Shown here piece after piece: positions 1 to 34,649 of a DNA stretch of 64,000 nt. The first letter of the stretch is position 1; each line of letters starts with the position of its first letter. Below the pieces are notes generated by a model. The model was not told where the DNA came from and searched no databases. It was given only the letters and a program-made list of their open reading frames with translations. The translations under genes and the position numbers were made by a program. Source of the stretch: Candidatus Hydrogenedens sp. (GTDB lineage Bacteria; Hydrogenedentota; Hydrogenedentia; Hydrogenedentales; CAITNO01); assembly GCA_012522755.1 (NCBI GenBank), contig JAAYJV010000130.1, forward strand, positions 1 to 64,000, in the 5' to 3' direction.

Positions 1-133
1 AAGATTTTTCGCCCCTACAAGCGTATAGTCTCAGTCCTTCGTTACAGTTTCATTCTGTGCTGCTCAGATATCCGGGCGCAAGATTTTTCGCCCCTACAAG
101 CGTATAGTCTCAGTCCTTCGTTACAGCTTCATT
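1..133. repeat. Tandem pair of GCGCAAGATTTTTCGCCCC-type repeats
   Basis: A unit of about 54 bp starts at position 1 (cut by the window edge) and recurs almost unchanged at 80-133, a period of 79 bp. Each unit begins with AAGATTTTTCGCCCCTAC, followed by a conserved non-palindromic tail. The head matches one arm of the inverted repeat at 12820-12929, so this is a dispersed family. No coding potential is seen. Confidence 0.85.
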
Positions 134-184: not shown

Positions 185-3052
185 TCAGTTGTTCAGTGCG
201 GGCACAATGGGCGGTATGTCGTTGTCGAACTCGATGCGCAACCCTGCTTCCATGGCTGCTTCCGTCACTTCATTCACGACATCAATGGGTGCGCTCGGAT
301 GCTTTCTGATGACCACTGTGACAGGCATGTTTCCTGGCGCATCAAAGAATTTGTCGCGCAGATCATCAGGCGTAACGATTTCTCCTGCACAATGGATCTG
401 ACCGTTCTGGCCTATGGCGACTCCGATCTCATTTTTACCGTCGGTGAGATGGTCTTTAAAGCGTCCGAAGGCATCTTTTTTCATGGTCCTTGCCGTCTTC
501 GCAATTTCCTCATCAGCCTTCACAATGGAGAGTGCCTCGGGCATGGTATCTTCGCCCACAATGGTTGTGGTCATGAAAATAAGCAGCGCTGAGTTGCTTG
601 AAGCCCTTTTGGGGTTGCGGAAGAGTTTGCCCACCAGAGGCAGATCACCCAGCAGGGGGGTACGTGTGGAGGAGTTGCTCGCTCTGTCCCGACGCAAGCC
701 TCCCAGAACGATGGTATCTCCTGAATTCACGCGCACCTGCGTATCGGCACGGCGCACGGTTTTTTCCGGAACGGTACGGGACAGGTCATCGACGACAATT
801 TTCTTGTCTGTGAAGGTACTGTCTTCAGCGCTGATATCCAAAAGGATGTTTGCATCCTCCGTTACACGGGGCAGCACGGTGAGAATGGTACCCACATCAA
901 TGAATTCCACGCGGCTGTTCGCAGAAGACATGCGCCGGTAATAATCCAGATTATCACTGCTTGAGCCGCTTGAATATCCGTAACCATAGCCGCCGTAGCC
1001 ATATCCACCCGATGAGGAGACATAGGGGACTTTGGTGGCATTTTCAAAGAGAGCTTCTTCGCCGTCCTGTACGGTCACCTTGGGTGAAGAAAGGATGGTG
1101 GCTTTCTGCTGGCTGTCGAGATAGTCCAGTGTTGCAGCCAGATTTCCGCCTCTATAGGAGTCCAGGATCGGTTGCCCTGAGATATCGCGCAGGATGGGCC
1201 GCGTTATCCTTCCGGAACTGTCGAGTTCCAGAGCGCCATAGCGTGGAATGGCAAAAGGCTGCCGTCCTCCGCTGGCGATCTGGCCTTCACCGGTAGCACT
1301 TGCGCCCGTCTCGCCGCCTGTGCCACTGTGCAGAGAGAAAGGTGCACCGCCCACATTGGCGAAATAAGACCAGTTCACACTGAAAGCACGTTCGATCTCG
1401 GAGCTTACTTCCACGATATAGGCTTCAATCATGACCTGCTTGCGTCTGATATCCCATACCTGGATGAGCGAATCGATTTCTTCCAAGCGACTGGGCAGGC
1501 CTGTCGCGGTGATCTGATGCACTTCGTCCTGCAATACAATCTGCCCCATCTCGCCGGGGATATAGGTTTCGATCTGGTCGGCTATGAAGTCCGGATCCGC
1601 ATATTTGAGAATCCAGGTCCGTGTTTCGAGTTTCTGGTCCAGGGTTTCAACCAGAGACGCGATTTTCTCCATGCGCGGCGGCAGATCCGTAACGACCAGC
1701 GTATTGAAACGGGGATCCATCTGAATGGTACCGCGCTCTGACAGGAGGGATTCCACACTGTCCAGAACGTCCTCGGCGTTGACATGGGTTATATAGAAGG
1801 TCTGGGATTCCACGGGCGTATCGAGGCGCGATATGGTTTCCTTGATCTGTGCCAGTACGGTTACATTGTCCCAGATGAACAATTGATTGGTTCTGACATC
1901 GGTAAGAAGTGACCCGCTCTGTGAGAGAAGCGTTCCCACAGCGGCTTCAATATCAGCCAGGTCAGCATGCTGGATGGTGTAGTCCGCCTTTTGCAGGGGC
2001 ACATCCATTTCTTTTACGAGCCGTTCCATTTCAACGATATTATCCTGCGTATCCCAGACATAGATATTGTTCGTGCGCTGGTCGGTAATGATCCGGCCAT
2101 TGGGTGAAAGCAGCGAATGGACGAGGGACTCCATATAGGCAATATCCGCATGGACCACTCTGAATTCATGAGGTTTGGATTTGCCGAATTCCCGTTCCAG
2201 ATATTCTTCTTTGGTCATGACACGCAGAAACTCGGTTTCTTCGTCAAATTCAAAATAGACTTTGTTGAATTTCAGCACTTCGAGGGCCTGCTTGGGTGAG
2301 ACTTCATAAAGCCAGAAGCGCAACTGTGTTTCTTTGAGTTCCGGTGAGATGACCATGTTCCAGTTCGTGGCCAGATTGATGGCACTCAGGAATTCATCCA
2401 GAGGCATGGGCCCTTCCAGTGTGATTTGTTCGCCATCTTCGGGGATGGGACCATATTCCACTTCCCGCTCCATAACCGGTTGAAAGGCGCCGCTGCCTGA
2501 AGAAGAGATGGAACTGACACCGCCTTTCCCGAAAGATGCGCCGCCGCCATCCCCTCCACCAGAGCCACCGGACGCCCCGCCGCTGCTTCCGCCCCCTACA
2601 GACCGTACCTGAGCACCGCCGGCACCGCGCGCAGCAGGCGCTTCACGACCGGCTCCTGAATCACCTGAGGCCCGTTCCGCGGCCCCTGTGGAGGGTGTGT
2701 CGCCGGCTGTACCGCTGGCTGTACCGCTGGCTGCTGTGCCGGTGGAAGCGCTGGTTGCGGCTGATCCTCTCGCTCTGGATGCGGGTCTGACAGGGCCGGA
2801 TGTCCCCTCAATGCTGGTGGTTGTTCCCGTAGTTGATCCCCGGCCTCTGTCCAGACGGGTGGACGTACCCGCACCGGACTCATCGCCTCCTGTGGAGACG
2901 GTGCCCCAGTTTCTTCCTGCTGTAGAAGAGGGGGAGGGGCGCCGGGTAGGTGCTGTCGGCGTCTGGCCTTGCGCTGCAGCAGAAAAGGCTGTGGCATAAA
3001 TTACGCCGATAGCGGCCACCAGGGCCAGAGATCGTGTCATTAAAGAAGTCAT
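185..3052 (-). CDS. gspD: GspD/PilQ-family secretin with C-terminal ExbD/TolR-like domain
   Basis: Outer-membrane secretin, the channel of a type II secretion or type IV pilus-like machine; 955 aa. A signal peptide (residues 1-27) is followed by about 165 residues of Gly/Ser/Thr/Arg-rich low complexity, then an N0/STN-like domain (about 200-290). Four successive N-type modules follow (about 295-545; module starts HADIAYMESL, HADLADIEAA, HVNAEDVLDS, YADPDFIADQ). The secretin core has VPYVSSSGG, GTILTVLPRV and the signature PLLGDLPLVGKLFR. A Tyr/Gly-rich insertion (GYGYGGYGYGY) sits in the gate region. The last about 85 residues (188-436 in DNA) resemble the periplasmic domain of ExbD/TolR: a NGQI turn, PVTVVIR strand and DVVNEVTEAAMEAG helix. 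The start is ATG after AAGGGA. A 233-bp gap separates it from the preceding gsp gene. The secretin call is firm; the ExbD-like call rests on pattern recognition only. Confidence 0.93.
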   Translation of the reverse strand: MTSLMTRSLALVAAIGVIYATAFSAAAQGQTPTAPTRRPSPSSTAGRNWGTVSTGGDESGAGTSTRLDRGRGSTTGTTTSIEGTSGPVRPASRARGSAATSASTGTAASGTASGTAGDTPSTGAAERASGDSGAGREAPAARGAGGAQVRSVGGGSSGGASGGSGGGDGGGASFGKGGVSSISSSGSGAFQPVMEREVEYGPIPEDGEQITLEGPMPLDEFLSAINLATNWNMVISPELKETQLRFWLYEVSPKQALEVLKFNKVYFEFDEETEFLRVMTKEEYLEREFGKSKPHEFRVVHADIAYMESLVHSLLSPNGRIITDQRTNNIYVWDTQDNIVEMERLVKEMDVPLQKADYTIQHADLADIEAAVGTLLSQSGSLLTDVRTNQLFIWDNVTVLAQIKETISRLDTPVESQTFYITHVNAEDVLDSVESLLSERGTIQMDPRFNTLVVTDLPPRMEKIASLVETLDQKLETRTWILKYADPDFIADQIETYIPGEMGQIVLQDEVHQITATGLPSRLEEIDSLIQVWDIRRKQVMIEAYIVEVSSEIERAFSVNWSYFANVGGAPFSLHSGTGGETGASATGEGQIASGGRQPFAIPRYGALELDSSGRITRPILRDISGQPILDSYRGGNLAATLDYLDSQQKATILSSPKVTVQDGEEALFENATKVPYVSSSGGYGYGGYGYGYSSGSSSDNLDYYRRMSSANSRVEFIDVGTILTVLPRVTEDANILLDISAEDSTFTDKKIVVDDLSRTVPEKTVRRADTQVRVNSGDTIVLGGLRRDRASNSSTRTPLLGDLPLVGKLFRNPKRASSNSALLIFMTTTIVGEDTMPEALSIVKADEEIAKTARTMKKDAFGRFKDHLTDGKNEIGVAIGQNGQIHCAGEIVTPDDLRDKFFDAPGNMPVTVVIRKHPSAPIDVVNEVTEAAMEAGLRIEFDNDIPPIVPALNN

Positions 3053-3285: not shown

Positions 3286-3780
3286 TTATTCTCTGGCCTT
3301 GCTCAGCTTAAGGGTTTTATTCCCTTCCTTCCAGTGCAGCGAGAAGACCACTTCGGTGCGCGATATGGAATCAATGGTCACACCGTTGATGGTTTCACCT
3401 TCGCCGAGGAAAACACCCTTCGCATTTCCCGGTACTATAAATTTGGCTTTTCCGCCCACCTGCTGGCGGGTGGGTTTGACTTCCGCAAGCATCTGTGCCA
3501 GATCAGGAGCCTGAGGTGGCGGTGGCGGTGGCGGCGGCGGCGGCGGCGGCGGCGGAACCAGTTCACGCCATACCTCCGGTTTTTCGGCAATGATCCTGTT
3601 CCAGGTTTCAAATTGCCATTCAAATTCGTCGTCTGCATCGTCCCGGGGACCTGTCTCCCGGAGTCGTCGTTCCAAGTCCTCTTTTCGTGGAGCGGTGGGA
3701 TCATTCAAATAATTCAGGCTGATCATCCCCAGAATACAAGCGAGGATACCTGTAGCAGTTATGGCAAGAAGACGGTCCAT
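3286..3780 (-). CDS. GspC/PilP-like inner-membrane secretion protein
   Basis: A 164-aa bitopic protein. One N-terminal membrane segment (about residues 5-25) is followed by a charged stretch, then a run of 14 prolines (about 92-105). The C-terminal part is a small beta domain resembling the HR domain of GspC or PilP (VPGNAKGVFLGEG, NGVTIDSI). Such proteins link the inner-membrane platform to the secretin, which fits its place directly before gspD. Its ATG overlaps the stop of the gspM-like gene (TAATG), so the two are translationally coupled. The proline run is encoded by an almost pure GGC/GGT triplet repeat at about 3510-3556. GspC versus PilP cannot be decided here. Confidence 0.7.
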   Translation of the reverse strand: MDRLLAITATGILACILGMISLNYLNDPTAPRKEDLERRLRETGPRDDADDEFEWQFETWNRIIAEKPEVWRELVPPPPPPPPPPPPPPQAPDLAQMLAEVKPTRQQVGGKAKFIVPGNAKGVFLGEGETINGVTIDSISRTEVVFSLHWKEGNKTLKLSKARE

Positions 3781-4889
3781 TATACCTCCGCTATTTTTCT
3801 CAGGACGATATTGGAAATTTCGGCCTGTGTATCTTTGTCGTTAAAAAGGATCCAGGGACATTTGACCGGACCGGGCACTCCGGTTTTTCCGGGCAGTGTA
3901 AACTGAAACTGCACTCTCAATGCCTGACCATCTCCGGCGATGATCTGGCTTTCAGGAAAAGGGGCCGCATCCTGTTCCAGGCCGACCCCTACAGTAAAGT
4001 CATGGGGCTCAGCGAAAAGATCCAGACTCATGTGATAGACAGCACCGCCCTCCAATTGCTGAAGCATATAGGCTTCTGAATGCTCTTGAAGGCTCGATAT
4101 GACTACCGTATCTCCTCTGGAAGACGGCTCAGCTCTTTCCCGGGAAGCGACGGCGATTCCTTCACCGAGCCAGGTGCCACTTTCGGCGGCCTGCGCTGCG
4201 GGGAATTCATCTTCTTCCATTTCTTCAATGTAGTCATCTGTTTCCGAACTGCTGTCCAGATGGGGGGAACCATCGGCGACAATACGTGAAATGTCAATGG
4301 TGGCACTGACCTGTTCGCCGCTGGGAGCCCGGTTGAGTTCCAGCCCATCCAGTCGCAGTGACTGCGGGCTCTGTTGCAGCCTTTCGAGGAAATAGATCAC
4401 ATTTTCCAGGCTGCTTGAGGGGATGCGCAGGTTGAGCATGTATTCGCGATAACCCTGCCCGCCTTCGGCCATGTTCCCTTTTCCCAGAGAAGGAATCTCC
4501 ACCAGATTACCCTCTGTATTGGGCGTGTTCACGGGAATACCGTTGCTGTCCAGTTCCTGCGGTACTTTTCGCGCCAGCCGATAGATTTCCTGACGGAGCC
4601 GGTCATGAATTTCCGCTTCCGTCCAGGCGCTGGAATGCTGGGCGGCAACAATGGCGTATTGGGCTTCCACCTGTTCCCGGTGCGCAATCTGATAGGTATA
4701 GGAAACCAGGTCATCTTCCAGACGGGAAAGGGTGTTGTCCAGGTCACGAAGCGTTCCTGTGACCCGTTGGTATCCGCCAACGGTAATCATGAGTACTACG
4801 GCTGCGCCTGTCATGAGTGCCAGTCGTTTTTCACGGAGGGACAGTTTTGTCCAGAGACTCAAGAGTTTAATGATGGTTTTATTCAACAT
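3780..4889 (-). CDS. GspM/PilO-like secretion assembly protein
   Basis: 369 aa. One N-terminal membrane segment (about residues 22-42, LALMTGAAVVLMITVGGY) is followed by a coiled-coil stretch (LDNTLSRLEDDL). Two alpha/beta regions of the ferredoxin-like kind seen in GspM and PilO come next, then an acidic linker around residues 215-235 (EMEEDEFPAAQ). It lies between the gspL-like and gspC-like genes, the standard position for this assembly-platform subunit. Its start overlaps the previous gene by 11 bases. It is longer than typical GspM (about 160 aa), so it may hold two copies of the periplasmic fold. Assignment is mainly by membrane topology and gene order. Confidence 0.72.
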   Translation of the reverse strand: MLNKTIIKLLSLWTKLSLREKRLALMTGAAVVLMITVGGYQRVTGTLRDLDNTLSRLEDDLVSYTYQIAHREQVEAQYAIVAAQHSSAWTEAEIHDRLRQEIYRLARKVPQELDSNGIPVNTPNTEGNLVEIPSLGKGNMAEGGQGYREYMLNLRIPSSSLENVIYFLERLQQSPQSLRLDGLELNRAPSGEQVSATIDISRIVADGSPHLDSSSETDDYIEEMEEDEFPAAQAAESGTWLGEGIAVASRERAEPSSRGDTVVISSLQEHSEAYMLQQLEGGAVYHMSLDLFAEPHDFTVGVGLEQDAAPFPESQIIAGDGQALRVQFQFTLPGKTGVPGPVKCPWILFNDKDTQAEISNIVLRKIAEV

Positions 4890-6369
4890 TGTCTTCCTCC
4901 TGAATCCGTACTTCTATCTGATAGGAAAAAACGATCTTATCCCGTTCCTGGGTCTGTTGTTCGTAGAGGCTGCGCGCCTGAGAAAAGAATTGCAGGTGTC
5001 CTTCCGCCTTGTTGCGTATGTTCTGGGCGAAGTCCGACACATCGTTCACTTCTCTGGCCCGGCCCCACAATTCGATGCCTTCGTCTTTTCGCAGAGAGAG
5101 GCGGGCGAAATTCAATCGATCCTGGGGAGCCGCCTCCACAAGCGTGGCCAGTTGCTCCAGAATAGAACCTTTGCGGTCCACCTGCCGGTTGAGAATATTG
5201 AGAGCTTCCCGTTTCTCCGTGATGCCCCTGGCATTGGGTTCTATACGGGCGATGCGTTGTTGCAGTTCCCGGATCAGAGTCAGCCGCTGCGACTTTGCCT
5301 GATAATACCATCCTCCCAGCGCGAGAAGAATGAGGAGGCCGAAGACGCAGCCCTGAAGCAGTCGTTTTTTAATGGCTTCAATACGGCGTGCTTCCGATTC
5401 TGATTCGGGCAGCAGATTGATATTGAACTGTTCCCGACCTGTCAGATTCAGGAGGGCACCTGCAGCCGAGATGGACAGGCCACTCTCAGGGAGACTGAGC
5501 TCATCCAGAATGGGAGAAGAGAAATGCAAGGGCTTGCATTCCCTGTTCATGCTCTCAGAGAGCGATTGGCACAGCAGGGTCAGATCGGCATAAGAACAGG
5601 CGAGATGCACTTCGTCAACACCCATTCCATCAGTCGATTCCCGGCGATAGGCCGCCAGAGAGTTGCGCATTTCGCCGGCCAGCTCCTCAGCTGCGGAATC
5701 CACAATGAGCCCGCCACCTGTTCCCGCATCAGGGTCGAGAGCCGCTGCTTCCCAGTCCTGGCTGGAGATAATCCCGCGACTGAAGACGGGGATGCCTTCC
5801 TGAAGCACCAGAATCTCCATGCCGCCGTCGATAAGGGAGACGATTGCATGGCGCCCTGTGGAGAGGACGGGATCCGTCATGGCGGCCGTGGCAATGCAGG
5901 CTGTGCTCAGCAGGATTTTTTCCGGAGTGATCCCGCATTCCTGAAGCAGTCTCAAGGGTTTGTGTACGGCATCCTGATGGGCCAGAGCAGCCAGGACTTC
6001 CGATTCTCCTGAACCCAGCTTCTGTACGATACACTGGTCGACAATCAGTTCATCCAGTGCATAGGGCACATATTCTTCAGCACTGAAACGCACCATACCG
6101 GCCACTTCTTCCGCATTTTGTGAAGGGAAGGTGAGGAGCCGTGTGGTCACGTCCTGCCGGGGGAGTACCAGTATTATCCGGTCCTCTTTTATCTGCATTT
6201 CTTGGATCAGATCGCATAAGGCCTCTTCGGCGGCACCTTCTTCCCAGGGACCGGCAATACGCCGGGATACCATATCCGAGGGCTTTTTAGCGCCCATGGT
6301 AAAGCGGGTGACAGTCATGCCACTGGCGGCAACCTGAATCACACTGATTTGTGGAATTTTACGAGCCAA
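4879..6369 (-). CDS. GspL-like protein (PilM-type actin fold plus PilN-type region)
   Basis: 496 aa in the chosen frame. The N-terminal about 330 residues form a PilM/GspL-like actin-fold cytoplasmic domain (ISVIQVAASG, FSAEEYVPYALDEL, VSLIDGGMEILVL). A membrane segment follows (GCVFGLLILLALGGWYY), then a PilN-like periplasmic part with coiled coil (LIRELQQRIARIEPNARGI). GspL is this arrangement in one chain; in type IV pili it is two proteins. I chose a TTG start at 6369: AGGAG lies 7 bases upstream, it overlaps the gspK stop by 11 bases like the other junctions here, and the protein then begins directly at the first beta strand. A longer frame opens at 6417 but has no better start. Its role is to connect the platform to the motor ATPase, which is not encoded in this cluster. 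Confidence 0.78.
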   Translation of the reverse strand: MARKIPQISVIQVAASGMTVTRFTMGAKKPSDMVSRRIAGPWEEGAAEEALCDLIQEMQIKEDRIILVLPRQDVTTRLLTFPSQNAEEVAGMVRFSAEEYVPYALDELIVDQCIVQKLGSGESEVLAALAHQDAVHKPLRLLQECGITPEKILLSTACIATAAMTDPVLSTGRHAIVSLIDGGMEILVLQEGIPVFSRGIISSQDWEAAALDPDAGTGGGLIVDSAAEELAGEMRNSLAAYRRESTDGMGVDEVHLACSYADLTLLCQSLSESMNRECKPLHFSSPILDELSLPESGLSISAAGALLNLTGREQFNINLLPESESEARRIEAIKKRLLQGCVFGLLILLALGGWYYQAKSQRLTLIRELQQRIARIEPNARGITEKREALNILNRQVDRKGSILEQLATLVEAAPQDRLNFARLSLRKDEGIELWGRAREVNDVSDFAQNIRNKAEGHLQFFSQARSLYEQQTQERDKIVFSYQIEVRIQEEDNVE

Positions 6370-7309
6370 GGGTTTTCTCCTGCCAATCCAGAACCTGTAT
6401 ATAACTTCCCGCTGCAAATACAGCGGAGCAAATGGCGCGCACTTTGCCCTGACGGCGTGTGGCTACCCCCGTTATCCTAAAGTGTGAGGCATGGAATTTG
6501 CAATACACGCCCCATTCTCCAGAGCCCGATTCTGAAAGACCCGTCTTCTCCAGCAGGTCGCTCATATCTTCAAAGCCCTGATCATCATCTGTATATAATA
6601 TACCATCACCGCCGGCCCGGTATCCTACAATAGCGCTTATTTCGGATTTTTTCAGTCCGGGAATGCAGGAAAGCACTTCTTCTGAGGCCGTATTGATGTT
6701 GATCTGATTGCTTCCCCAGACGGTGAGCAGCTTTTTGAGGCCCGGACCTTTTCTCGATCCGAACCAGTCATCTTCCGACACACCGCGCAGATAGCGTATC
6801 TCTTCAATGGAGTTGAAGGGCTGGTATTCTTCACCGCTCCTGCCGCCGGCACGGTTGAGACGGGCATTGATGGCACGGATGACAGGGCGTTTCAAGGATT
6901 TGATTTCGACGAGGATTTTTTCGTCCGCTCCGTTGATATTGATAAAACGGTCCTCATCAATAATCAGATAGGCCACCTCATCATTGTCGTAATTTTCCCG
7001 TTCTTCAAAATATCCCTCTGTGAAAAGATTTGTTTTCTTCGCCCAGGACTGACCGCAATGATCACCGCCACGCTGGTCTTCTGGAAGCAGCATTTTCATG
7101 TAGCGCTGGTTGTACAGTTCAATGATACCCCGTTCCACGGCGCCCCGCGCCATGAGCATGGCCTCCGCCTGGTCCAGAGCATAGGCTGCTGCACGTCGTT
7201 CCAGCGCGGCCCGTCGACCGAAGCCCAGAGTGATGACTGTGAGCATGGCTGTGATCCAGAGGACGCTGACCAGAACGAAGCCTGTTTTTCGGATTGTTCT
7301 ATTTGCCAC
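6359..7309 (-). CDS. gspK: GspK minor pseudopilin
   Basis: 316 aa. It has a short basic leader and prepilin-like hydrophobic helix (KTGFVLVSVLWITAMLTVI) lacking the usual Glu5, as is typical of GspK. A large globular part follows with a helix-hairpin-helix stretch (NINTASEEVLSCIPGL) characteristic of the family (T2SSK/ComEA-like). GspK caps the pseudopilus tip together with GspI and GspJ, which precede it here. Its start overlaps the end of gspJ by 11 bases. Family length is usually about 300-330 aa, so it is full length. Confidence 0.88.
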   Translation of the reverse strand: MANRTIRKTGFVLVSVLWITAMLTVITLGFGRRAALERRAAAYALDQAEAMLMARGAVERGIIELYNQRYMKMLLPEDQRGGDHCGQSWAKKTNLFTEGYFEERENYDNDEVAYLIIDEDRFININGADEKILVEIKSLKRPVIRAINARLNRAGGRSGEEYQPFNSIEEIRYLRGVSEDDWFGSRKGPGLKKLLTVWGSNQININTASEEVLSCIPGLKKSEISAIVGYRAGGDGILYTDDDQGFEDMSDLLEKTGLSESGSGEWGVYCKFHASHFRITGVATRRQGKVRAICSAVFAAGSYIQVLDWQEKTLGS

Positions 7310-8042
7310 TCAGCATTTCCTCCAACTGTTCCCGTTTCTGGCGAAAACTCTGAGCACGCATGGGCATGATCGTATCGAAGTTGTAATTTTTCCCTTTTAT
7401 ATCGGGATCCTTCATTTCCACCTCCAGCCGGATGCCCTGAGGCAGGCCCCAACGTTCCCGCGATTCTTTCTTGTAAATGGGCGGTTCAGGTTCGGGCGGT
7501 GTATCGCGAGTCATCTCGGCTGGCAGGGGCACCCAGATATAGGTGATTTCAAAGCGACTCACATTCTCGGCGACCGTGGTCTTATAGCGTCGCTTCACTT
7601 TGATTTTGGAACGGTCCAGACTTTCCTTTTCCGGAAGGCGTTTGGGAAGAGCACTGGTGACCAGCGCTTCTTCTCTTTCAATGCTTCTCTTGTTTCGGTT
7701 CCAGGAGTATATGACCCGCATGAGGCGACTTCCTTCACCCTCATCCAGATCCAGGGGTTGGGCAATGACAAACATTGTGATGGATTTGTTGTCTCCTTCA
7801 AAGAGGTGTTCCGCCCGGCCCACGATGCAATTGTATTCATGGCTGAAGAGGGTGAAAAAACTCCTGGCGTCAAAGTGCATTTCCACTCCGCCTTCAACAC
7901 CCCGCCAGGTGCGTAAAGAGGAATGAGTCAGGCTGTAGACGGAACTCATGACCAGACTGAGCAAAACAGTTGCAACGAGCAGCTCCACCAGGGTGAAGCC
8001 TTTTTGATTCTGCGCATAGGGAGGGGCGGAAAGGGATTTCAT
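7299..8042 (-). CDS. gspJ: GspJ-like minor pseudopilin
   Basis: 247 aa. A type III signal/prepilin motif lies about 20 residues in (QKGFTLVELLVATVLLSLV), with cleavage expected after the Gly and Glu at +5. A beta-rich domain of GspJ size follows (FTLFSHEYNCIVGRAEHLF). I chose the ATG at 8042 because GGAGGA lies 6 bases upstream and the ATG overlaps the gspI stop (ATGA). An upstream in-frame ATG at 8063 has no ribosome site. Gene order I-J-K supports the assignment. Confidence 0.83.
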   Translation of the reverse strand: MKSLSAPPYAQNQKGFTLVELLVATVLLSLVMSSVYSLTHSSLRTWRGVEGGVEMHFDARSFFTLFSHEYNCIVGRAEHLFEGDNKSITMFVIAQPLDLDEGEGSRLMRVIYSWNRNKRSIEREEALVTSALPKRLPEKESLDRSKIKVKRRYKTTVAENVSRFEITYIWVPLPAEMTRDTPPEPEPPIYKKESRERWGLPQGIRLEVEMKDPDIKGKNYNFDTIMPMRAQSFRQKREQLEEMLSGK

Positions 8043-8500
8043 GGCATGTCCTCCGGTGTCCATAGAATGCCTTCTCCCACCAGAGATTCACCCAAAGCTT
8101 CAAAATCAGCTCCGCCCCGGCGCCAGGTGATACGAACGGTGAGTTTCCCCATGAAATCAATATAGGCATCTTCCAGGGCGTCCCGCTCTTCCGGTGAGAG
8201 CATGGGCGGCAGAGGCGGCTTGGGGATATCCACCTTTTCCAGACTCCACTCATAGCGGAAGTTTTCAAAGGGGGCGCTGCATTGACCCGACCCTTCTCCC
8301 TCAGGCTGTTTGAAAAGAAGAATGCGCTCGCCACTGATTTTTTCCAGGAGGAAGCGTGCCGTCGTCAGATCCTGAGCCTGAACCCGGGTAATCATGGCCT
8401 GACGCAAGGCTGTCTGGATGACCAGTGCGCTCATGCTCAGCAGACCCATAGCGACAACAGTCTCCACGAATATATAGCCTAAACGGGCGCGTCTCTTCAC
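8039..8500 (-). CDS. gspI: GspI-like minor pseudopilin
   Basis: 153 aa with the prepilin segment RLGYIFVETVVAMGLLSMSA. The usual GFTLxE is GYIFVE here, keeping Gly-1 and Glu+5. The short globular domain is of GspI length. The start overlaps the stop of gspH (ATGA-type junction) and the stop overlaps gspJ. It belongs to the tip complex I-J-K. Assignment depends partly on position between H and J. Confidence 0.8.
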   Translation of the reverse strand: MKRRARLGYIFVETVVAMGLLSMSALVIQTALRQAMITRVQAQDLTTARFLLEKISGERILLFKQPEGEGSGQCSAPFENFRYEWSLEKVDIPKPPLPPMLSPEERDALEDAYIDFMGKLTVRITWRRGGADFEALGESLVGEGILWTPEDMP

Positions 8501-9012
8501 CGGACATCCTTCATCTCTACCCGGCCCAGAGGGCCTTCCACAGTTATTTTAAAACGATTGCCCCGGACGCGGGTGTCGCGGAGCCGGATTTCAGCCACAC
8601 TGCTCGCACCGTTGGGCATACAGGCGATATATCGTTCCTGACTGGCGGGTTCTTTGCGGGCTTTGATACGCTCAATCTCCAGATACAGCGGCAGGAACTG
8701 TTTTTCTCCCAGAAGCGATTCCGCAATTTCGAATTGTTTTTCGTCCTTCTCATTCACCCCTGACAGGCGCACCATGCGGTAACTGTGTTCTTGAGAATTG
8801 AAATAAACACGGTATTCCACCGATTCGCGAACAGCCATTTCCTGAGCGAAACGAATAGCCGCAATAAGATCATTGCGGGCATTACGCAATTGGATGCCAT
8901 GCATGGATGTGATGAAAACAGGCATGACAGACAGGGAAATGGTCGCGATCAGAGCAACAACCACGAGCAGTTCCAAAAGGGTAAAACCGCGCCGCAAGAC
9001 CGCGCTATGCAT
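8497..9012 (-). CDS. gspH: GspH-like minor pseudopilin
   Basis: 171 aa. A prepilin leader with RRGFTLLELLVVVALIATIS is followed by a beta-rich domain with the GspH pattern (NDLIAAIRFAQEMAVRESVE, then KITVEGPLGRV near the end). An in-frame TTG exists at 9027, but the ATG at 9012 gives a leader of normal length; neither has a strong ribosome site. It lies 50 bases after gspG. Confidence 0.83.
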   Translation of the reverse strand: MHSAVLRRGFTLLELLVVVALIATISLSVMPVFITSMHGIQLRNARNDLIAAIRFAQEMAVRESVEYRVYFNSQEHSYRMVRLSGVNEKDEKQFEIAESLLGEKQFLPLYLEIERIKARKEPASQERYIACMPNGASSVAEIRLRDTRVRGNRFKITVEGPLGRVEMKDVR

Positions 9013-9061
9013 CGGGCGATTGATCAATTAAGAGGCTTTCTCGCCCTGAACATCATCCACG

Positions 9062-9448
9062 TCAGGGCATTGGTGAGGTGGAGGTGACATCATCTTCGTT
9101 GCCGGGCACTCCGTCAGGACCGGCTGAATAAATCTTATAATCCGCTTTGAGGATATCGGTCGGCGGCGTGTAGTAATAGGCATTCCCCCAGGGATCGGGC
9201 TGAAGCTCACGGACATAACGGCGCTTACCGGTAATCAGATCTTCCAGGGCCTTCGGATAAGAGTCGTTATGATCCAGGGCATACAGATCCACCTGAGTGC
9301 TCAGGGTGGATATGTCACCTTTGGCCGCACGGATCTGGGCCTCCCGGATACGACCACTGTAGTTTGCCACAACCATTCCGGCAAGAATACCGATGATGAC
9401 CGTAACAAGAATCAGTTCTATCAATGTGAAACCACTGTTTGCTTTCAT
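9062..9448 (-). CDS. gspG: GspG major pseudopilin
   Basis: 128 aa. It has a very short leader, then SGFTLIELILVTVIIGILAG, the classical N-methylation segment. A domain of typical major-pseudopilin size follows (DISTLSTQVDLYALDHNDSYP, DPWGNAYYY). The end SAGPDGVPGNEDD matches the calcium-binding loop of GspG (standard form SxGxDGxxGGxxxxxDI). It is the first gene of the cluster and builds the pseudopilus shaft. A promoter is visible 60-90 bases upstream. Confidence 0.93.
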   Translation of the reverse strand: MKANSGFTLIELILVTVIIGILAGMVVANYSGRIREAQIRAAKGDISTLSTQVDLYALDHNDSYPKALEDLITGKRRYVRELQPDPWGNAYYYTPPTDILKADYKIYSAGPDGVPGNEDDVTSTSPMP

Positions 9449-25377: not shown

Positions 25378-26871
25378 ATGCTTATCGGCAGCCAGACAAC
25401 CAGTACCCTCTTGGATGTGTTCCGCATTGGTATGGAAGAAATTATTCGTGCCACCGGATTGCCCACAGAAGCGGAATTCAAAACCCACAACTGTACCATT
25501 GAAGTACATGGCAAAGACCTCAATACGCGTATTGATGAGATGCATATTCATTTCACTCCGCGAGAAGATGTCAGTGTCCCTGAGGTGGAAGAAGCACTCA
25601 ATGCGACCCGACTGGGTGTTCGCATGCGCAAGACAAATGGGACTATTTCCATACAGGTGCCGTCTTTCACCTGGCAACAACTTCCTCTGCTTGCACCCTT
25701 GGATGAAGTCATTGACAAGTATGTGATACGCAGTCTTCGTTCGGAAACCTGGGAACTTGAGGTTTCCGACTATGTGGACAATGATTTCAATATCAACAGA
25801 CTCATTGAGTACATGAGAGAAAAAAAGGCATCGGACCTTCACCTGCGCGCCGGAAACCGTCCTTTCATCCGTGTGGATAATGATCTCCAGCCCATTGAGA
25901 ATCTGGCTGTGATTTCCAAGGCTGACATGGAAAGAATCGTGCTTCAGCTGGGCGGCGAGGCGGAACTTCAGCTTCTGGAGCGTGAACGCGAGTCCAGTTT
26001 CCAGTACCACGCTGCGGGTGTGGGGTATCTGCGTTGCAGCGGCTACATCAAAGGCGGTGCCATGGCCATTGCTCTGCGTCTGATTCCCGAGCAGCCTCTG
26101 CCCTTTCAAGCCTTGAATATTCCTGATGTGGTTCGAGAGGTGTGTGACAGACCGCGTGGCCTGTTCCTGGTTTGCGGTATTACCGGTAGTGGTAAATCCA
26201 CGACCCTGGCGGCCATGGTTGACTATATCAATGAACAACGCCGGGCCCATATCATCACCATTGAAGACCCTGTGGAATATGTGTATGTGGACAAGAAGAG
26301 CATTGTTTCCCAGCGACAGGTCGGGCGTGATACCCACTCTTTCGGCAATGCTCTCCGTGGTTCTCTGCGTGAAGATCCGGACGTGATCCTCGTTGGTGAA
26401 ATGAGAGATATGGAAACGATTCGTGCCGGTCTGAGTGCTGCTGAAACGGGTCACCTGGTTTTCAGTACGCTGCATACGACGACGGCTGTAGACACGATCA
26501 ACCGAATGATCAGTTATTTTCCACAAAATGAACGTGACCTGATCCGTCAGGAGATCGCCTATTCGCTGCAGGGTGTTGTCTGTCAGCGTCTGCTGAAAAA
26601 AATCGGCGGCGGTCGTATTCCTGCAGTTGAAATTCTGCTTGGCGGCCGGCCCATTGTCCGCGATGCCATTCTGGATGGTGATCTGGACAAGCTTCATGGT
26701 ATAATAGAAAATGACAGTGACATGCGCAGCTTTGACCAATATGCGGTCGAACTTTACCAGAAGGGACTGGTTACCAAGGAGGAAGCTATCAGCGCATGTG
26801 CGAATGAAGAGGGATTCCAGCGCGTTATTTCCGGTATCAAGTCCTCTGAAGGCCGGCGCCTGCTGAAATAG
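25378..26871 (+). CDS. PilT-like secretion/retraction ATPase with N-terminal extension (paralogue 1)
   Basis: 497 aa hexameric traffic ATPase of the PilT/GspE superfamily. It has an N2-like start IEYMREKKASDLHLRAG (about 140-160), Walker A GITGSGKSTT (about residue 268), an Asp box TIEDPVEYVY, Walker B EDPDVILVGEMRD and His box TGHLVFSTLHTTTAV. VCQRLLKKIGGGRIPAVEIL is PilT-like. Typical PilT is about 350 aa with Walker A near residue 130, so about 130-150 residues are added in front, with no similarity I recognise. ATG 25378 is used, with AGGA 8 bases upstream; a GTG two codons earlier is less likely. A second such ATPase is encoded at 33147-34649. Confidence 0.88.
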   Translation: MLIGSQTTSTLLDVFRIGMEEIIRATGLPTEAEFKTHNCTIEVHGKDLNTRIDEMHIHFTPREDVSVPEVEEALNATRLGVRMRKTNGTISIQVPSFTWQQLPLLAPLDEVIDKYVIRSLRSETWELEVSDYVDNDFNINRLIEYMREKKASDLHLRAGNRPFIRVDNDLQPIENLAVISKADMERIVLQLGGEAELQLLERERESSFQYHAAGVGYLRCSGYIKGGAMAIALRLIPEQPLPFQALNIPDVVREVCDRPRGLFLVCGITGSGKSTTLAAMVDYINEQRRAHIITIEDPVEYVYVDKKSIVSQRQVGRDTHSFGNALRGSLREDPDVILVGEMRDMETIRAGLSAAETGHLVFSTLHTTTAVDTINRMISYFPQNERDLIRQEIAYSLQGVVCQRLLKKIGGGRIPAVEILLGGRPIVRDAILDGDLDKLHGIIENDSDMRSFDQYAVELYQKGLVTKEEAISACANEEGFQRVISGIKSSEGRRLLK

Positions 26872-33146: not shown

Positions 33147-34649
33147 TCATCCTCCCTTGATACTGTCCAGTCTGGGAACGGAATAAGTGCCCATGCGCAT
33201 CTGGTCAAAGACGCTCACATCCGTGGCCTGTTGACGGGCATCTTCCAGAGCGATCACTCCTTCCTTGAACATTTTCAAGAGATATTGTTCAAAGAGCATG
33301 GAGTGCGAAATGGTCTGTTGCATACCCACCCGGATGGCGTCCGTGTCGCCTTTGAGGATGGCGTCATTGATGGGCTTGATATCATTGAAGAGGAATTCCA
33401 GTGCGGGAATACGTCCTCCGCCTGTTTTCGGGACCAGCCGCTGGCAGATTACTCCTTGCAGGCAATCGCGCAGCTGGAGCCGGACGAGATCACGCTCAAT
33501 GGGATCAAAAAAGCTGACAATTCGGTTGATCACTTCATAAGAGGTATTGGAGTGAAGGGTACTGATCACCAGATGCCCTGTTGCGGCCGCATTGATCGCC
33601 GCACGGATGGTGTCGGGATCACGCATTTCCCCGATAAGCACCACATCGGGGTCATGACGCAAAGCACCTGTCACCGCCTCGCTGAAGCTGCGCACGTCTG
33701 TACCGATATTTCTCTGCGACACGATGGACTTTTTATTGGAATGAACAAATTCAACGGGGTTCTCAATCGTCAGGATATGAAGAGCCTTGTGCGTATTGAT
33801 CCAGTCGAGGAGTGCCGCCATGGTTGTGGTTTTACCACTGCCTGTCATTCCCGTGATCAGGATGAGTCCCCGGGGCGTATCGGCGATAGTCTGCATCTGC
33901 TGTGCAGGCACATTCAGCTCTTCAAAAGAAGGAATGGCCTCGGGAAGATAGCGGAAGGTGCAATGGGGCGCTCCATTTTTCATAAAGGCGGAAACACGGG
34001 AATAGCCCATGCCGGCCTGGTGGTAAGAATAACTGGTTTGCAGGAATTCCTCAAATTCGTCATAAAAGCCCGGCGGGGCTGTACGCCTGATGAGTGTGCG
34101 GATCTGAGTGCCTGAAAAAGCCTGCATGATATCAGAAAAACGCGCATCATTATCAATACGGAAAATAGGCTTGAGCCCTGCTGTAAGGTGAACGTCGCTG
34201 GCCCGGTATTTGATCATGGCCTGGAAAAGCTTTTCAACATTGATGATCTGATCCTGGAAATCGAATCCTTCGGCGCGCCAGACCTCGGGAAGTCGAATTA
34301 TTTTCGTCAGTTCATCCACGAGTTCCAGTTGCTCTTCACGAAAGGCTTTGCCGGGAGGCGGGATGGCGACACGCCAGGAACCGTCCTCTTGCTTGACAAA
34401 AACATCCTCGGGATGGGCCTGTGCAAAACTTTGCAAGGCGCTTTCATCTGTGCGGGCCCGGGTTACACGGACATCATAAGAATCAAAATCCCCTTCAAGA
34501 TCGCTGCGACGCGCTTCAATATTGCTCGAATTGGTCCAGGTACAGACGCGGCCGGGAACACCCTCCTTTTTGGTAATCTGTTCGTCCACGAGCTCAACAA
34601 TGGTGCGTACCGTTTTTTTATATCCGACACCTAAAACAATTTCAGCCAT
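33147..34649 (-). CDS. PilT-like secretion/retraction ATPase with N-terminal extension (paralogue 2)
   Basis: 500 aa. Same core as the ATPase at 25378: ASDVHLTAGLKPIFRIDND, Walker A GMTGSGKTTT (about residue 267), TIENPVEFVHSNKKSIVSQR, Walker B DPDVVLIGEMRD and the His box TGHLVISTLHSNTSYE. The first about 150 residues (AEIVLGVGYKKTVRTIVELV onward) differ from paralogue 1 and match nothing I know. The glutamate in the Asp box of paralogue 1 (EDP) is EN here (ENPVEF). It stands alone with its own terminator. Two such paralogues often act with type IV pili or pseudopili; the gsp cluster here has no ATPase of its own. Confidence 0.88.
   Translation of the reverse strand: MAEIVLGVGYKKTVRTIVELVDEQITKKEGVPGRVCTWTNSSNIEARRSDLEGDFDSYDVRVTRARTDESALQSFAQAHPEDVFVKQEDGSWRVAIPPPGKAFREEQLELVDELTKIIRLPEVWRAEGFDFQDQIINVEKLFQAMIKYRASDVHLTAGLKPIFRIDNDARFSDIMQAFSGTQIRTLIRRTAPPGFYDEFEEFLQTSYSYHQAGMGYSRVSAFMKNGAPHCTFRYLPEAIPSFEELNVPAQQMQTIADTPRGLILITGMTGSGKTTTMAALLDWINTHKALHILTIENPVEFVHSNKKSIVSQRNIGTDVRSFSEAVTGALRHDPDVVLIGEMRDPDTIRAAINAAATGHLVISTLHSNTSYEVINRIVSFFDPIERDLVRLQLRDCLQGVICQRLVPKTGGGRIPALEFLFNDIKPINDAILKGDTDAIRVGMQQTISHSMLFEQYLLKMFKEGVIALEDARQQATDVSVFDQMRMGTYSVPRLDSIKGG

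Follow-up and report, generated by a model that had tools for sequence, protein, structure and literature searches.

Secretins belong to the most thoroughly studied machines of the outer membrane. Their attachment to the cell wall varies by lineage, and little is known of it outside Proteobacteria. The secretins of type II secretion systems (T2SS) use different wall attachments in different lineages, and a wall-binding (SPOR) domain of the secretin's own was stated for Legionella LspD only (PMC9239104). In GspD secretins with an S-domain and a pilotin (PulD/PulS, EpsD/EpsS), the S-domain packs on the barrel and binds the pilotin, and its loss in Aeromonas impairs secretin assembly (PMC6532946). 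The periplasmic domains of ExbD and TolR are known from motor proteins. It was reported that the isolated ExbD domain binds the glycan chains of peptidoglycan transiently, and that E. coli TolR binds peptidoglycan only with its swapped strands removed (PMC10771500, PMC4646322). A dimer of ExbD captures a proline-flanked strand of TonB by beta-augmentation (PMC10907165). In the literature searched, which is part of the whole literature, no description of a secretin fused to an ExbD/TolR domain was found; the author of the earlier note on this DNA knew of none but could not rule one out.

The window analysed here covers the first 64,000 bases of the 73,050-base contig C101, which belongs to a Hydrogenedentota MAG of 4.0 Mb. 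Inspection of its minus strand revealed an open, in-frame ORF of 955 aa encoding a secretin (Table 1), with a signal peptide (hydrophobic stretch at residues 9-27), a Gly/Ser/Thr-rich stretch, several Secretin_N domains, the Secretin domain and a C-terminal ExbD-like domain. Pfam reported only Secretin_N (8e-39, in 4 stretches) and Secretin (4e-38) in this protein, and no AMIN, SPOR or LysM domain. PilQ, in contrast, has built-in wall-binding AMIN domains at its N-terminus. The NCBIfam models of PilQ and GspD both matched the secretin, each below its own cut-off. Among named relatives, the closest one with this gene was Candidatus Hydrogenedentes bacterium ADurb.Bin170, at 84% over the C-terminal 371 residues. 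The contig end lies just downstream of the secretin gene, where aagatttttcgcccctacaagcgtatagtctcagtccttcgttacag was present twice, ∼80 bases apart, within window positions 1-130.

Table 1. Features of the secretin gene and of the genes upstream of it (window coordinates)
Feature	Position	Strand	Basis
Secretin, GspD/PilQ superfamily	185..3052	-	ORF, Pfam, NCBIfam
Secretin barrel domain, residues 645-832	557..1120	-	Pfam PF00263
Charged linker with predicted helix, residues 833-873, at the S-domain position	434..556	-	AF2 helix, dN, conserved R
ExbD/TolR-type periplasmic domain, residues 874-943	224..433	-	Pfam homologues, hhalign, AF2 and Foldseek
Conserved end motif xxxPxVP, residues 944-951	200..223	-	Alignment A1
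GspC-like inner-membrane protein with one TM helix, a polyproline rod and a small beta domain	3286..3780	-	Sequence, neighbourhood
GspM-like protein	3780..4889	-	Pfam T2SSM E 6e-4, below cut-off
GspL/PilM-PilN-like protein	4879..6417	-	Pfam PilM_2 8e-11, T2SSL 1.6e-4, PilN 8e-4
GspK	6359..7309	-	Pfam T2SSK 5e-6, HHH_3
Pseudopilins GspJ, I, H, G	7299..9448	-	Pfam N_methyl (7299-8063, 8497-9027), GspH 0.005, T2SSG 2e-14 (9062-9448)

The secretin gene was the last one of a GspG-H-I-J-K-L-M-(C-like)-D operon. It was assigned to type II secretion by Pfam and neighbourhood, with pseudopilin, GspK, GspL and GspM genes accompanying it; GspI (8039-8500) was assigned by gene order only. The name GspC is putative, because no Pfam match was obtained for the protein at 3286-3780. 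A triplet repeat (3518-3555) codes for 14 consecutive prolines in this protein. Of the relatives in which the DNA before the secretin gene was read, most have a GspC-like gene directly upstream of it. At one related locus (L088, genome G024), gspE/F-like genes adjoin, as judged by inspection. Two T2SSE/PilT-type ATPase matches were observed on the contig of the window, at 26125-26604 (+) and 33426-33905 (-), in open frames of 505 aa.

The earlier note had claimed that the secretin continues past its canonical end with a segment of ExbD/TolR layout. The quoted end, PLLGDLPLVGKLFR, stops at residue 812, and the Pfam Secretin domain extends 20 residues further, to 832. The boundary was therefore placed too early, but the extension itself is real: 123 residues follow the Pfam domain, consisting of the linker, a domain of ∼70 residues and a short conserved end. 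The three quoted motifs were found at the claimed places within residues 878-942, namely VAIGQNGQIHCAGE (residues 878-891, window 380-421), the PVTVVIR strand (residues 910-916, window 305-325) and DVVNEVTEAAMEAGLRIEF (residues 924-942, window 227-283). In an alignment of 57 distinct tails (A1), the arginine of an RxxxK motif in the linker was conserved in >90% of the tails, as was the proline of the end motif (>90%), which is located outside the ExbD-matching part.

When the tail of the window was searched alone, Pfam ExbD was the sole match (E 0.15-0.19, 12.5 bits against a cut-off of 25.4), and NCBIfam gave nothing useful. Among the 57 homologous tails, 45 matched Pfam ExbD at E<=1 (best 7.4e-7), compared with 3 of 57 for the next family. 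A profile built from the tails retrieved genuine ExbD ORFs of the phylum from 3,912 ORFs with E-values down to 7.5e-8; this set included loci picked for ExbD, which alters the number of matches and not the E-values. Comparison of the tails with 34 ExbDs of the phylum by hhalign yielded a probability of 97.1% (P 5.6e-11) over 68 columns, whereas reversed tails gave 1.2% and the best of 100 column-permuted alignments gave 12.6%. In a PDB sequence search with the tails, ExbD chains (8PEK, 8P9R, 8VGC, 2PFU, 7AJQ and 6TYI) were 6 of the top 7 matches. Because their E-values were 0.2-1 and rank 1 (E 0.047) was an unrelated kinase, this search is weak evidence when taken alone; a search with a single tail gave chance matches to antibody light chains only.

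AlphaFold2 (AF2) was run with three sequences, those of the window and of the related loci L062 and L063. The core of the 127-residue model had a pLDDT of ∼80, and the linker helix was seen at low confidence. The model trimmed to 85 residues (mean pLDDT 80.6, pTM 0.64) showed a predicted order of beta-beta-beta-alpha-beta-alpha-beta. In Foldseek searches of both models against the PDB, ExbD periplasmic domains (8PEK, 8P9R, 8VGC) occupied ranks 1-5 with E-values of 3e-5 to 3e-4 and TM-scores by target of 0.62-0.81, and TolR (5BY4) was found at rank 6 with the trimmed model and rank 16 with the longer one. Only ExbD and TolR stood clearly above the background. It was considered that the tail could have arisen by duplication of a secretin N-domain, or could resemble the ExbD fold by chance, without being a relative of ExbD, since weak echoes of the tail profile were seen in secretin N-domains (E ∼0.1 or worse). 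The hhalign probability to each of five secretin N-domain profiles was, however, <=5.3%, against 97% to ExbD, by which duplication of an N-domain was rejected. As the fold search also put ExbD and TolR first, both variants of this explanation appear very improbable.

The tail is thus almost certainly an ExbD/TolR-type periplasmic domain, as the earlier note had proposed. The assignment is strongly supported, with a basis that is strong from profile and fold comparison and weak from the PDB sequence search. The check set by the note, namely a missing match to PF02472 or a fold of the region as an S-domain helix, did not refute it. The tail resembles the ExbD/TolR periplasmic domain (PF02472) in fold, in the order of strands and helices and in the profile, and differs from it by signatures of its own, RxHPxAP and the PxVP of the end motif. 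The Hydrogenedentota secretin shares the secretin core, the N-domains, the T2SS neighbourhood and the C-terminal position of the appendage with PulD/PulS and EpsD/EpsS, but its appendage is a folded domain of ExbD type, apparently in place of an S-domain with a pilotin-binding helix.

With the last 111 residues as query, secretins with the same tail were found in 58 of 68 Hydrogenedentota genomes, in ORFs that were either secretin-sized or truncated where a contig ends. The remaining 10 yielded no orthologue without the tail. Nine of these contained only distant secretins, or none, at the threshold applied; the clearest candidate orthologue in the 10 genomes (G037, contig C88) gave only separate partial matches in one 571-aa frame and no clear C-terminus. 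In another genome (G014), just the last 44 residues were present, at a contig edge. The mean column identity of A1 was 44%, with near-invariant R10, E30, G36, G39, G45, L53, R71, H73, A76, P77, A88 and P103. Between the window and L062, dN was 0.093 for the tail and 0.080 for the secretin domain, compared with 0.28 for the linker and 0.44 for the Gly/Ser-rich stretch, from which it follows that the tail is constrained as tightly as the barrel. These results demonstrated that the tail is under purifying selection and fixed across the phylum in one secretin orthologue. In the genome from which the window comes (G000), a single match to the A1 profile was obtained, and the other secretins of this genome lack the tail. 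One genome carried two tandem tail-bearing secretin genes (L212, G064:C27:8381-15000).

Outside the phylum, the A1 profile was searched in 318 genomes and in a second, overlapping sample of 387, with the best <=12 candidates scored per genome, so that a divergent tail-bearing secretin could be missed. The matches were mostly free ORFs of ExbD size, and no tail-bearing secretin was found among the long ORFs read one by one in the two samples. The long profile-matched ORFs were rejected as such, being IF-2-like, nucleotide-sugar enzyme-like, peptidase-like or a combination of Secretin_N and ExbD. The last of these (L228, G392:C87:1500-5211, 460 aa) has a signal peptide, a lone Secretin_N (6e-8) and two ExbD-like domains (ExbD 4.7e-6), and no secretin barrel. 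In one genus outside the phylum, long proteins labelled M56/BlaR1-peptidase-like by inspection (L224-L227) carry a C-terminal ExbD domain (1.1e-8 in L225). A further fusion, L151, combines a signal-peptide-like start with a C-terminal ExbD. Within the phylum, a 1080-aa ORF of one genome only (L154, G051:C83:15500-20500) joins a GH3 glycosidase, an ExbD-type domain and LysM repeats behind an N-terminal hydrophobic segment. As in the tail, the domain occurs in L154, L228 and L224-L227 without a motor helix and in proteins of envelope type, but these are not secretins. It follows from such soluble fusions that the ExbD-type periplasmic domain is a mobile module; in the samples searched, it is the fusion to the secretin that has become fixed throughout a phylum, and the others are scattered.

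All 34 ExbDs examined had an N-terminal hydrophobic helix with the proton-relay Asp in or beside it. In contrast, none of the 57 tails had a TM helix or this Asp, and none attained a hydropathy of 1.6 over 19 residues. No exbB was found on the contig of the window, and the two exbB genes of the genome lie elsewhere, on contigs C61 and C190, adjoining the two exbD genes of ordinary type. The tail, which is carried by an outer-membrane channel, is therefore regarded as a homologous domain outside the motor and not as an ExbD/TolR protein, and its sequence indicates that it cannot itself form a proton channel. The earlier note had raised coupling of channel opening to a proton-driven or peptidoglycan-binding partner, of which the proton-driven one is not supported. 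A secretin that acts as an energised ExbD-like subunit, together with ExbB/TolQ and at the expense of the proton-motive force, would be in line with the domain homology only; in view of the missing TM segment and Asp and of exbB lying only beside its own exbD on other contigs, this proposal was rejected and is considered extremely unlikely. At another locus (L064, G020:C22:29500-31500), a TolQ-like gene and two exbD/tolR-like genes were observed directly beside a PilT-like ATPase gene. That a whole phylum has put the periplasmic domain of a motor protein to a second use on its secretin offers a clear, testable case of this domain at work without the proton channel, which would help to separate the domain's own roles (wall binding, strand capture and dimerisation) from those of the motor.

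Anchoring or docking of the channel, and not its powering, is the probable role of the tail. By analogy with other T2SS secretins, it would lie in the periplasm alongside the barrel, where those secretins have the S-domain and pilotin; at one copy per subunit, some twelve or more tails may form a ring. The reading that we favour, with about an even chance, is that the tail is a passive peptidoglycan anchor. The ring would then hold the channel to the glycan strands as free ExbD/TolR periplasmic domains can, without conducting protons, and might stabilise it during assembly and the push of the pseudopilus. This reading is suggested by the peptidoglycan binding of isolated ExbD and truncated TolR domains, by the lack of an AMIN, SPOR or LysM domain in the secretin and by L154, in which the same domain type is joined to wall-associated GH3 and LysM; the support from L154 is limited, as this fusion occurs in a single genome. 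Doubt arises because TolR binding needs the swapped strands removed and ExbD binding is only transient, and peptidoglycan binding may have been lost, since the signature RxHPxAP is the tail's own. Legionella LspD is likewise a secretin with its own candidate wall-binding domain, but its SPOR domain is N-terminal and unrelated, whereas the domain in Hydrogenedentota is C-terminal and of ExbD type.

The position of the tail could also reflect a role in assembly, in which the tails form pairs across subunits or attach to a lipoprotein and so stand in for S-domain and pilotin in targeting to the outer membrane and in keeping the ring stable. The dimerisation of ExbD and TolR periplasmic domains (PMC10771500, PMC4646322) and the assembly defect after S-domain loss in Aeromonas (PMC6532946) are consistent with such a role, which we consider possible though rather unlikely. 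In a wider formulation, a motor-derived C-terminal ring of ExbD-type domains would replace pilotin and S-domain throughout the phylum, and either grip the wall or recruit a strand of a trans-periplasmic partner and so catch it. We hold this formulation to be evenly balanced between true and false; if true, it would be a C-terminal, motor-derived system of secretin anchoring new to description.

For the catching of a partner, two tails may recruit a proline-flanked strand of the GspC-like polyproline protein or of a TonB/TolA-like protein, much as an ExbD dimer catches the D-box strand of TonB, by which the secretin would be coupled to the inner membrane. The best structural matches of the tail include ExbD:peptide complexes, in keeping with the strand capture of ExbD (PMC10907165), and the TM-polyproline protein adjoins the secretin in most relatives read. 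We consider docking possible though rather unlikely. In T2SS, the HR domain of GspC is already engaged at the opposite (N0) end of the secretin, and two related loci (L200 and L213) keep the tail despite a reduced polyproline stretch.
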